Source: Croceicoccus sp. (GTDB lineage: Bacteria > Pseudomonadota > Alphaproteobacteria > Sphingomonadales > Sphingomonadaceae). Taken from it: DNA of 64,000 bases. Shown here piece after piece: positions 27,636-34,459 of this stretch; position 1 is the stretch's first letter, and the number at the start of each line of letters is the position of its first letter. The stretch covers positions 1 through 64,000 of the forward strand of contig NZMY01000050.1 of the NCBI GenBank assembly GCA_002694745.1, in the 5' to 3' direction. Both the position numbers and the translations under genes were made by a program. A model generated the notes under the pieces. That model worked only from the letters and a program-made list of their open reading frames with translations. It did no database searches and was not told the DNA's origin.

Positions 27636-29456
<1,821 letters not shown>

Positions 29457-29460
29457 CGGC

Positions 29461-29576
29461 CCGCGCCTAGCGCGAAGCGCTAGAAGCGAGAGCCGGTAAC
29501 TCCGGCCGGCGGCCGCGCGGGCGAAACGCCCGCCGCGAGCCGTTCGACGTCATGGCCGCGGCTTTGCCGCGGCTGA
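29461..29576. repeat. Three-hairpin structured repeat, copy A
   Basis: About 116 bp made of three consecutive hairpins: CTAGCGC-GAA-GCGCTAG (29467-29483), GCGGGCG-AAA-CGCCCGC (29517-29533) and GCCGCGGC-TTT-GCCGCGGC (29555-29573). They are joined by linkers that are also found in copy B (AAGCGAG, TCCGGCCGGCGGC and GAGCCGTTCGACGTCA). It begins 4 bp after the lepA stop and may end its transcript. Copy B is at 31273-31387, same orientation. Confidence 0.85.
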
Positions 29577-29596
29577 ATCAAGGCCGTCTGAAAACT

Positions 29597-30424
29597 TCAT
29601 GTTGCAGAAGGCTTGCTTTGAGATGAAAAACTTGCAGCAGACATCTTAATCAGTTCAGCTTCGACATCGGCATCCAGTTGCACATCACGCAACGAATGGA
29701 CGCAATGCAAGCCAGCTCCTACAATAAGACCAGTCTCCGGATGCCCAAAGAAATGTGACGATAGTTCCCGTAAATATCGCGGTTCAGGTATTCCGAAATT
29801 TTTGTCAGTTTTGTCTACGCACTTATATAGTGCGTGCGCTACAAGATCCGCGATTTGAATAATTGGCTCTTCGTTTTTCGTCATGATCTTGATATTATCA
29901 ACATCAATAAATCGGAGCTTTCTTGTTAATTGATGTTTTGGGTTTTTCTGACAAGCTCTCAAGAGATTTTTCATCTTATCGTAATCGACATTTGCTTTTT
30001 CAAAAATAATTTGGACGTTGCTGCTAGAAATTTTTCGACTCTCGAGGAACCATCCGATGCGTTCGAGAAGATACTGAGCGCATTTATTATAATACATGCT
30101 ACTATTATCAGATATTTTTTGTTTATAAGAGCCAAGGGTGTTTTTATGAGAAATAACGCCAAAAATACGAGTATCTAATTCTTTGATTTTGCGTATATAA
30201 TATAAAATTTGATAATGTTTTAATTGCGAGCAATGAAGATATTTTTTTGAAATTCTATTTTGTATTTCATTAAGATTATCTTCTACTAATTTACGGTCTT
30301 TGTTCCTTATTAAACACGCGCCCAATGTCATATATGGGGAAGCGCCACCTCCCTCCTGCGACCGGACCTTCTCAATGCCCGCCTCTCCACTCTCGTCAAT
30401 AAATACTGTGAACTGCTCTTGCAT
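29597..30424 (-). CDS. DUF3800 domain protein on AT-rich, probably foreign DNA
   Basis: Protein of 275 residues. The start of the DUF3800 domain is clear: FTVFIDESGEAG (residues 5-16), with the acidic Asp10/Glu11 typical of this RNase-H-like fold. The C-terminal PIIQIADLVAHALYK segment matches the family's QxADxxA motif. DUF3800 proteins are uncharacterised; the domain is often seen in mobile regions and near phage-defence genes. Base composition is strikingly AT-rich compared with every neighbour and lysine, asparagine and isoleucine codons are frequent, so it was probably acquired by transfer. ATG at 30424 is preferred; a TTG at 30460 is possible, and neither has a good ribosome-binding site. 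It lies between the two three-hairpin repeats. Confidence 0.85.
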   Translation of the reverse strand: MQEQFTVFIDESGEAGIEKVRSQEGGGASPYMTLGACLIRNKDRKLVEDNLNEIQNRISKKYLHCSQLKHYQILYYIRKIKELDTRIFGVISHKNTLGSYKQKISDNSSMYYNKCAQYLLERIGWFLESRKISSSNVQIIFEKANVDYDKMKNLLRACQKNPKHQLTRKLRFIDVDNIKIMTKNEEPIIQIADLVAHALYKCVDKTDKNFGIPEPRYLRELSSHFFGHPETGLIVGAGLHCVHSLRDVQLDADVEAELIKMSAASFSSQSKPSAT

Positions 30425-30588
30425 AAAGGTTGGACTGCGCAATCTAGGTGGATTACGCAAGTGACTATAGATTTTAATGCATAGTTAGGCTTCAGGGAGC
30501 GGGCTAATTTTGATCGCCCACTGACAAGACCTATTTCTTGCCGCACACTCACCCGCCCGCTTCGCCAGCACGATGCCGCCCCCGCATA

Positions 30589-31200
30589 TCATTCAGCTTC
30601 CGGTTGATGCTCGCATAAATCTCTGCCTCGCTGCGCTCTTCCGTCTCCGCCCGTTCGGCTTCCCATTCGGCTCCATTCGCGTTTCAGCCGTGCCAGCAGG
30701 GCCTGATCCACCGCCGACAGAGCTTTCGCGCCATCCGCCGCGAAGCGTTCGGGGGCTCGGTTGCGCAACAGGAACATCAGCAGCCGGTCGTTGTAGACGC
30801 GGCGCGTGCCGACGATCTGGCCGAAGTGGTAGACGGGCACTTCGACGCCGTGGATGGCGCGTTCCATGGCGACATCCTCTAGCCGCTGGACGCCCAGCGC
30901 CAGCGCGGCTTCCCATGCGGCGCGAAATTCGTGGCCCTTGGGGTGGCGGCGCAGGAGATAGGCGCCCTCGGGCGTCATGTTGACCGCGTGGGCGGCGCGC
31001 TTGACGCTGCCGCTGTCGGCCAGCGCCTCGATAAAGCGGCGCTGGCGGTCGGGGGTCCAGCCGTCGTGGCGGTTGTACTTGCGCGGCACGGGGGTGAAGT
31101 CGGGCAGGGTGCCGCTCGGGTTGCCGGGCGGATCGCCTGCCAGAACGGCGGGAAGGGCCGGGGAGGCGGCCGGGTGGCGGCGGGATTTGTCGATGGTCAT
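30589..31200 (-). CDS. Terminase-small-subunit-like / HTH hypothetical protein
   Basis: Protein of 203 residues, basic. The core (about 36-90) reads NRHDGWTPDRQRRFIEALADSGSV, then KRAAHAVNMTPEGAYLLRRHP, a layout resembling the helix-turn-helix of phage terminase small subunits: a tryptophan followed by a recruitment helix and a DNA-binding helix. No nuclease or ATPase motif is seen and no other phage gene is nearby, so a phage role is not implied. Start at 31200 is supported by GGAG 8 bases upstream. Its composition is GC-rich like the chromosome, unlike the DUF3800 gene 165 bp downstream on the same strand. Confidence 0.65.
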   Translation of the reverse strand: MTIDKSRRHPAASPALPAVLAGDPPGNPSGTLPDFTPVPRKYNRHDGWTPDRQRRFIEALADSGSVKRAAHAVNMTPEGAYLLRRHPKGHEFRAAWEAALALGVQRLEDVAMERAIHGVEVPVYHFGQIVGTRRVYNDRLLMFLLRNRAPERFAADGAKALSAVDQALLARLKREWSRMGSRTGGDGRAQRGRDLCEHQPEAE

Positions 31201-31272
31201 CGCGAACGCTCCGGAAGAAGGGCGCGATGGCATGGGGCATGACGAGGAAGTAGGACAATAAAATTGACCCCG

Positions 31273-31387
31273 CCGCGCCCAAGGCTCCGCCTTGGAAGCG
31301 AGTCGTGGTCAATCCGGCCGGCGGCACGCGCGGGCCGAAGTCCGCGCGGAGCCGTTCGACGTCACAGCCGCGGCTTTGCCGTGGCTG
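31273..31387. repeat. Three-hairpin structured repeat, copy B
   Basis: Same layout as copy A with different stem sequences: CCAAGGC-TCC-GCCTTGG (31279-31295), CGCGCGGGC-CGAA-GTCCGCGCG (31327-31348, one G-T pair) and CAGCCGCGGC-TTT-GCCGTGGCTG (31365-31387, one G-T pair). The linkers match copy A nearly base for base. It lies between the 5' end of the terminase-like gene and the 3' end of the PDZ-like gene. Confidence 0.85.
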
Positions 31388-31408
31388 CGCGCACCGACCG
31401 GAGCCCCA

Positions 31409-33643: not shown

Positions 33644-34354
33644 TCAGCCGATGAGGTTCGATCCCGCGTTCGCATCGACCTTGCAGGCATAGATCAGGCG
33701 GCCTTCGCCCAGATGGTCGAACACCTGGTCCAGCCCGCGGCGCGAGAAGGCGAAGCAGCCCTGGCTGCGGCCCAGCTTGCCGTGCTGCTGAACCATTTCG
33801 GGTTCGGCATACCATGCGCTGTGCACCACGATGGCGCGCTGCATCGCATTGTCGTTGGTGGGGTCCAGCCCGACAAGGCGCTGCGAACTGCCGTGCTTGC
33901 CGGTGTAATAATTCGCGGTCAGATAGGCGCCTTCGGAGGTGGCGTTGGAGCCGGGACGATTGGAAAAGCGCTGCAACCAGCCGCTATAGGCCGGGTCCGA
34001 TCCGCTGCCGTGCGAGACCAGCAGCGACCGGCTCTCCCCCTTGTCGAGATCGACGAGGTGAAAGCGGGGCTGCGCGGAATGGGCAGCGAAATCGATGATG
34101 GCGATGCGGTCGCGCCGGACTTTCGCACCGTGCCGGTTCAGCGCTTCCATCGCGGACATGAACAGGTCCGGCCGGATGCCGGTCGCGCGGATCAGGTCGA
34201 GCGAGGCGTCGGTCGGCGCGGCGGCGGGGATGGCCGCACCCAGCGGCTGCACCACCGGGCGCGCGACGACCGGCGGCGCTGCCCTTGCGGCGGCGGCGGA
34301 GGTTGCGAGCAGGGTCGAGGCAGAAGCGATAAAGTTGCGGCGGCTGAATTTCAT
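33644..34354 (-). CDS. Murein L,D-transpeptidase catalytic domain family protein
   Basis: Exported protein of 236 residues with a Tat-like signal (MKFSRRNFIASASTLLAT, residues 1-18). The YkuD-like active site is visible as VHSAWY (conserved His) and LGRSQGCFAFS (catalytic Cys in the SxGC motif). Such enzymes form or remodel 3-3 cross-links in peptidoglycan or attach proteins to it. The ATG at 34354 positions the signal at the N-terminus; the frame is open further upstream. Divergent from an XRE regulator. Confidence 0.85.
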   Translation of the reverse strand: MKFSRRNFIASASTLLATSAAAARAAPPVVARPVVQPLGAAIPAAAPTDASLDLIRATGIRPDLFMSAMEALNRHGAKVRRDRIAIIDFAAHSAQPRFHLVDLDKGESRSLLVSHGSGSDPAYSGWLQRFSNRPGSNATSEGAYLTANYYTGKHGSSQRLVGLDPTNDNAMQRAIVVHSAWYAEPEMVQQHGKLGRSQGCFAFSRRGLDQVFDHLGEGRLIYACKVDANAGSNLIG

Positions 34355-34459
34355 GGGTTTTGCAGATAGGCCAGGAATGCAATCAAGGTCTTGGGGAATT
34401 ATTGTCGGAAACAAACATCATCTTGCGTCATGCAGGATAAGTCAAAGGCGAGATATTGC

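Follow-up and report, generated by a model that had tools for sequence, protein, structure and literature searches.

The 64,000-nucleotide stretch of Croceicoccus sp. DNA analysed here (the window) carries two copies of an element of ~130 nt that consists of three consecutive helices, P1, P2 and P3, and looks like a real, so far unnamed RNA structure. We consider it probable that the element forms a complete transcript 3' end and acts as plus-strand RNA. The features that can be read from the sequences are the three covarying helices, the junction with a stop codon or tRNA, the orientation, a T tract in three distant genera and the persistence of copies at orthologous gene ends; protection of the transcript end by P1 and P2 is a function that we infer.

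Two copies of the element in the window

Two repeats, A and B, had been recognized by the initial annotation, and both are present and in register (72% identity over 53 nt and 87% over 46 nt) with the stems that it quoted. They lie at the sites it gave, but their 5' ends are 12-13 bases further upstream, at 29449 and 31260. Copy A (29449..29576, plus strand; match to covariance model R2 in its own genome, E 1.9e-18) closes lepA, the gene for elongation factor 4 (27636..29456, plus strand; Pfam LepA_C, E 7e-50), and its first 8 bases are the final 8 of the lepA reading frame. P1 of this copy (29451..29502, plus strand; letters checked and pairs counted in lepA orthologues) is built, from the outside inwards, of GAGT (29451-29454) with ACTC (29499-29502), CGGC (29457-29460) with GCCG (29492-29495), CGC (29462-29464) with GCG (29486-29488) and the apical arms CTAGCGC (29467-29473) and GCGCTAG (29477-29483), all on the plus strand. 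The lepA stop codon, TGA at 29454..29456 (plus strand; ORF 27636-29456), lies within it. Continuing on the plus strand, the conserved single strand CGGC (29503..29506; lepA alignment A6, described below) separates P1 from P2 (29507..29546, with one bulged T at 29543; pair counts in alignments A3 and A6, and letters), and the conserved single strand ACGTCA (29547..29552; A6) separates P2 from P3 (29553..29575), which has a TTT loop and is the equivalent of the putative terminator hairpin in relatives.

Copy B (31260..31388, plus strand; R2 match with E 7.6e-16) has its helix 1 at 31263..31313 (plus strand; letters checked), with the outer arms ATTGACC (31263-31269) and GGTCAAT (31307-31313), read by eye on the plus strand, and the apical arms CCAAGGC (31279-31285) and GCCTTGG (31289-31295), taken from the predicted plus-strand fold. 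Helix 3 lies at 31365..31387 on the plus strand. The CCAAGGC/GCCTTGG hairpin is present in the minimum-energy fold of copy B and the outer ATTGACC/GGTCAAT pairing is absent from it. Plus-strand folding gave z = -4.74 for copy A and z = -2.92 for copy B, and minus-strand folding z = -4.27 and z = -1.11, respectively.

The A/B alignment and the letters bear out that the stems of the two copies differ yet stay paired. The order of three hairpins proposed earlier also stands in both copies; an outer helix around hairpin 1 had been missed, formed in A by GAGT..CGGC with GCCG..ACTC and in B by ATTGACC with GGTCAAT. Among the linkers said to be conserved, CGGC and ACGTCA are single-stranded, but CGG of CGGCCGGCGGC and TCG of TTCGACG extend helix 2, and the idea of hairpins joined by unpaired linkers was dropped for this reason. 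Nor is the element confined to the described pair, as model R2 finds 7 copies in the window genome at E<0.001. The training alignment of R2 includes A and B, so their E-values say little by themselves; the evidence for the element is the covariation and the wider set of copies.

Covariation of the three helices

P1 is long and comprises an outer part, a small internal loop (GA/GTA in the lepA copies), an inner part, a C/AGA loop and, at its apex, a hairpin that varies. P2, with its single bulged T, comes after CGGC, and P3, with its TTT loop, after ACGTCA. In a MAFFT alignment of 19 copies from the window genome and relatives (A3), on which the structure was drawn by hand from the same sequences, 89.8% of 898 cells are paired and 24 of 49 pairs show two-sided changes, and none of 500 shuffles reached the observed values on any of the five measures. 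When the partner was slid by one to three columns, pairing fell to 29-45%, a control biased in favour of the structure because the structure was derived from the A3 sequences; the shuffles and the two-sided counts are the stronger part of this evidence. The 5' end of copy B is misaligned in A3, and thus B contributes nothing to P1 there. Two-sided changes were also counted in 42 of 46 pairs among 89 model-fitted copies (A4) and in 41 of 46 pairs among 65 model-fitted copies from three other genera (A5), both alignments being biased towards the model. P3 pairs in 95% of cells, giving a stable hairpin at the end of the element.

To avoid the mixing of paralogues, copies at lepA 3' ends only were aligned with MAFFT (A6, 13 sequences, omitting the more diverged lepA copies L103, L105, L116 and L144). 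In this set 92.6% of cells are paired, with two-sided changes in 21 of 50 pairs; on four of the five measures none of 500 shuffles matched the observed value, and on the fifth, the number of further pair types, 47 of 500 did so. The outermost four pairs of P1 in the window join the last Glu codon and the first base of the stop (GAG T) to ACTC. In relatives whose frame ends in TAA TGA or TGA TGA, the 3' arm reads ATTA or ATCA, so that the 3' untranslated arm tracks changes around the stop codon. These four positions are paired in 13 of 13 lepA sequences, and three of the four covary.

The comparisons support a covarying three-helix fold that appears to be under selection, also in the set restricted to orthologues. 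Selection for the fold, as suggested by the initial annotation, is supported by covariation in many copies, the lepA orthologues among them, and the covariance-model search that it proposed yielded further copies that keep the pairing and, in the stretches searched, match no Rfam family, leaving the claim of a conserved structure in place. Compensatory changes might also arise by hairpin-templated repair (quasi-palindrome correction), which needs no selection, and the fact that whole stems differ between copies would fit such a process. It would have to account, however, for two-sided changes in P1a, the four-pair helix beyond the internal loop, whose arms are 44 nt apart in A with one arm lying in a codon and the stop, and for loops and linkers that are conserved while the stems change; we regard it as very improbable. 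The count of G.U against A.C, used to ask which strand folds, was 21:25 in A3, 14:7 in A6 and 187:89 and 67:34 in the model-fitted sets, and is a weak test where the alignment is not model-fitted.

Distribution and copy number

Searches of the family and the class scored 9-10 candidates per genome, and the resulting prevalences and copy numbers are lower bounds. Matches were found in 10 of 14 genomes of the window's genus. Across the family, at least 41 of 298 genomes match model R1 and at least 70 of 298 genomes, in at least 31 of 96 genera, match model R2. Within a class-wide sample, at least 2 of 337 genomes match, both of them from the window's family. Named carriers include Erythrobacter, Porphyrobacter, Croceicoccus, Sandarakinorhabdus and Polymorphobacter. 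Ten genomes picked for having matches hold 3, 16, 19, 23, 24, 32, 37, 38, 39 and 39 copies. A contiguous 400 kb of one of these ten, chosen regardless of matches, contains 6 copies, corresponding to ~50 per genome; three of these six were in the model's training set.

Position at gene and tRNA ends

Positions were assessed in two sets of copies, with gene ends called by a purpose-made codon-usage gene caller and an accepted distance of -50 to +25 from the end of the coding sequence. The first set comprises 81 copies, obtained from 89 model matches after removal of 8 (4 duplicate records, 1 cut by a contig end and 3 weak). Sixty of the 81 start within this distance of the end of a same-strand coding sequence, and 57 of these 60 overlap its stop codon (median -8). 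A tRNA-Gly lies directly 5' of another 5 copies, 7 follow a same-strand gene at a greater distance, and for 9 the nearest upstream gene is encoded on the opposite strand. The second set comprises 65 copies from genomes G016, G050 and G172, a non-random sample drawn from 60 high-scoring stretches as against 114 matches counted. Here 45 copies are at coding-sequence ends, 42 of them overlapping the stop, 3 are at tRNA ends (Arg, Gly, Ala), 4 are farther away and 13 have an upstream neighbour on the opposite strand or none. Across both sets, which have 4 loci in common and give 142 distinct copies, 103 begin at the stop codon of a gene on their own strand and 7 immediately 3' of a tRNA, while 32, copy B included, are away from any same-strand gene or tRNA end as called.

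The 108 upstream proteins fall into 70 clusters, 9 of which have members from at least two genera according to the labels applied. Since these labels count every named record as a separate genus, as many as two or three of these 9 clusters could lie within one genus. The multi-genus clusters include lepA, rpoA and groEL, and one that is ndk-like by eye. The domain scan covered 30 of the 63 upstream proteins in the first set, as C-terminal parts, and several consequently fell below curated cut-offs. The scanned proteins include relatives of IF-2, RpoA, GroEL, L33, aconitase and glutamate dehydrogenase, an AhpC-like peroxiredoxin, CysS, malate synthase, GcrA and PurM, as well as LysR-type, Lrp-like, HerA-like and VOC-family-like proteins; LepA is also found upstream. 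Some of the genes concerned (LysR type, VOC-family-like) are not obviously highly expressed. Four loci (L111, L122, L253 and L280) have two elements in facing orientation, separated by 22 to 135 nt; at L122 and L253 each of the two closes one of a pair of convergent genes, and at L111 and L280 only one of them closes a gene.

The T tract after P3

In the second set, 55 of 65 copies have at least 5 T in the 12 nt after P3, compared to 6 of 65 in control stretches at +40 to +52, and the mean number of T in the first 12 nt is 6.6, against 2.0 further on. This 12-nt count falls outside the model except for the model's last base or two. The fraction of T is 0.60 in the four bases that follow P3 and declines to ~0.2 beyond 28 bases. 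The enrichment is modest in the first set, with T at 0.25-0.33 in the first 20 nt and 0.17-0.20 further on (68 of 81 copies parsed). At least 5 T in 12 nt were found in 19 of 50 first-set copies outside the window's genus and in 4 of 31 copies from Croceicoccus; copy A has 2 T in this interval and copy B has 0.

Judged from sequence, P3 and its T tract in the three-genome set are the signature of an intrinsic terminator. A predicted terminator role is well supported in some genera and is not supported for copies A and B of the window. Of the three options offered by the initial annotation, a transcription-end element fits best, on the grounds of gene-end position and the T tract.

Relation to known RNA families and repeats

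Rfam 15 gave no match above the gathering cut-off in the window and 8 loci. At a permissive threshold, applied to the A-B region and 12 more loci, tRNAs passed and no other match reached its cut-off; a miRNA model that matched helix 1 of L110, for example, scored 36.6 bits against a cut-off of 92. The earlier statement that no named family fits agrees with the absence of Rfam matches in the stretches searched. A search of titles and abstracts in the open-licence literature found no such element named. The passages of PMC2267715 on stem-loop families, which concern other genomes, do not name Sphingo- taxa, Zymomonas or Erythrobacter. Terminators built from DNA uptake sequences are mentioned in the same passages (PMC2267715) and resemble the element in having a conserved sequence dispersed in terminator hairpins; the element differs in its three helices and covarying stems. 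Rfam motifs DUF3800-I and -IX are named in a passage of PMC11701678, and a DUF3800 gene adjoins copy A. Assignment to a DUF3800 RNA motif was rejected because the window has no Rfam match and the genome has 1 DUF3800 gene against 7 elements.

Zymomonas mobilis is a member of the Sphingomonadales. For this organism, a passage of PMC7566282 reports 249 intrinsic terminators with mapped transcript ends and E. coli-like properties. Like an intrinsic terminator, the element has in three genera a hairpin (P3) followed by a T-rich tract, at the ends of genes and tRNAs. It differs from them in two extra covarying helices and fixed single-stranded motifs 5' of P3, in a fold that begins on the stop codon, and in the T tract being mostly absent from the window's genus. 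What is new is a probable transcript 3' end whose conserved structure is unusually large and starts from the stop codon, and which in several genera closes with what looks like an intrinsic terminator.

REP and BIME repeats, which are associated with RAYT transposases, are dispersed hairpins, often found 3' of genes and credited with mRNA end protection. A GTAG tetranucleotide at the foot of the hairpin is a feature of REP/RAYT systems. The element is likewise made of dispersed hairpins, often 3' of genes, but is ~130 nt long, mostly in one orientation, and starts on the stop codon. GTAG was seen by eye in copies at LysR sites, where its TAG is the stop, and not in lepA copies. A Y1 transposase was found in 2 of 8 carrier genomes, one match being weak, and not in the other six (G000, G005, G006, G016, G050 and G353), and on this ground membership in the REP/RAYT group was rejected. 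As regards integron attC sites, the genes that carry the element include core genes such as lepA and rpoA.

The region 3' of lepA

Copy B closes no gene, as the ORF on its 5' side (30589-31233) runs away from it, and it is therefore an orphan copy. Between A and B lie an A+T-rich DUF3800 gene (29597-30460, minus strand), the only one found in the genome, and this ORF, a hypothetical ORF of 214 aa (ORF214; minus strand) for which no Pfam match was found. The order 3' of the lepA element in the window is DUF3800, ORF214, copy B, two more genes and a YkuD-type ORF named by eye (33644-34414). In G005 the YkuD-type gene is directly 3' of the lepA element. G006 has different cargo next to the lepA element, then a homologue of ORF214, a copy B with a poor score (43 bits) and the YkuD-type gene, and the interval matching the DUF3800 region of the window has a different sequence there. 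Copy B appears to have arrived, or been retained, together with inserted cargo.

Homologues of ORF214 occur near lepA in several genera, and at L137 and L207 the homologue itself is followed by a same-strand element. Extra copies of the last 18 to 118 codons of lepA, with unrelated sequence between them, were observed 3' of the intact gene at L194/L207, L199/L212, L196/L209, L208, L210 and L215 and, by eye, at L192, L193 and L198. The hairpin element is present at one of the duplicated lepA ends in G078 (L105). In the window's family, the 3' end of lepA has the appearance of a hotspot for insertions, with 29456-31260 as the possible hotspot region in the window. Eight Croceicoccus copies (L072, L075, L082, L088, L090, L092, L094 and L098) have a 3' extension of ~60-68 nt, each shared with at least one other copy, and in L093 the shared part is limited to the first 26 nt; the pattern resembles that expected from amplification of a longer composite repeat.

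The element could be a mobile REP-like repeat that survives best just 3' of genes, with hairpins that act in single-stranded DNA during copying and an RNA without a role. Such a repeat would be multi-copy and dispersed, as the element is, and the extension common to eight copies, as in a recent composite repeat, the variable cargo flanked by A and B (with a single element in G005 and two in G006) and the folding of both strands, seen in the minus strand of copy A, would all be expected of it. The largely uniform orientation relative to genes and the overlap with stop codons argue against it, as do the copies at tRNA ends, the copies at orthologous gene ends in different genera and the scarcity of Y1 transposases. 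The mobile option named by the initial annotation is weakened on these counts, although amplification of the composite version does seem to have taken place in the window's genus, and we think a mobile repeat unlikely to explain the element.

Proposed role and significance

As a complete transcript 3' end, the element would begin on the stop codon or directly after the tRNA CCA and would leave almost no single-stranded 3' untranslated RNA. P3 would close the element and, with its intrinsic-terminator make-up in several genera, would stop RNA polymerase. P1 and P2 may form a compact cap against 3'-to-5' exonucleases, Rho and other single-strand-binding factors, a function in keeping with housekeeping genes that are well expressed. 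Most Croceicoccus copies have lost the T tract, and there the cap function or a Rho-dependent ending would carry the element.

It is possible, and we suggest this only tentatively, that the copies constitute a genome-wide 3'-end module through which termination and the stability of mRNA ends would be set in tens of transcription units, with some protein or the terminating ribosome as its reader. A ribosome-sensing role is conceivable since the stop lies in P1: the outer helix holds the last sense codon and the first stop base, a ribosome on the stop would have to open it, and the fold could thereby report finished translation. The tRNA-linked copies (7 of 142) mean that ribosome sensing cannot be the general rule; they would need the protein or the end-protection version. 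A platform for a dedicated RNA-binding protein, or a small RNA derived from the 3' untranslated region, either of them coordinating a set of genes, appears doubtful to us. If a dedicated protein bound the element, this would account for the conservation of CGGC and ACGTCA, which are kept unpaired, together with bulges and asymmetric internal loops, while the stems change, but no single pathway common to the 30 scanned upstream proteins was seen.

If transcription and folding of the complete 3' end are confirmed, the Sphingomonadaceae (in the GTDB sense) would have their own family of complex 3' ends with the stop codon built in, a structured-RNA family that Rfam 15 did not return for the stretches searched. 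As many as 39 copies were detected in one genome; these would be natural replicated 3' ends, and would allow the links between translation termination, transcription termination and mRNA protection to be tested.
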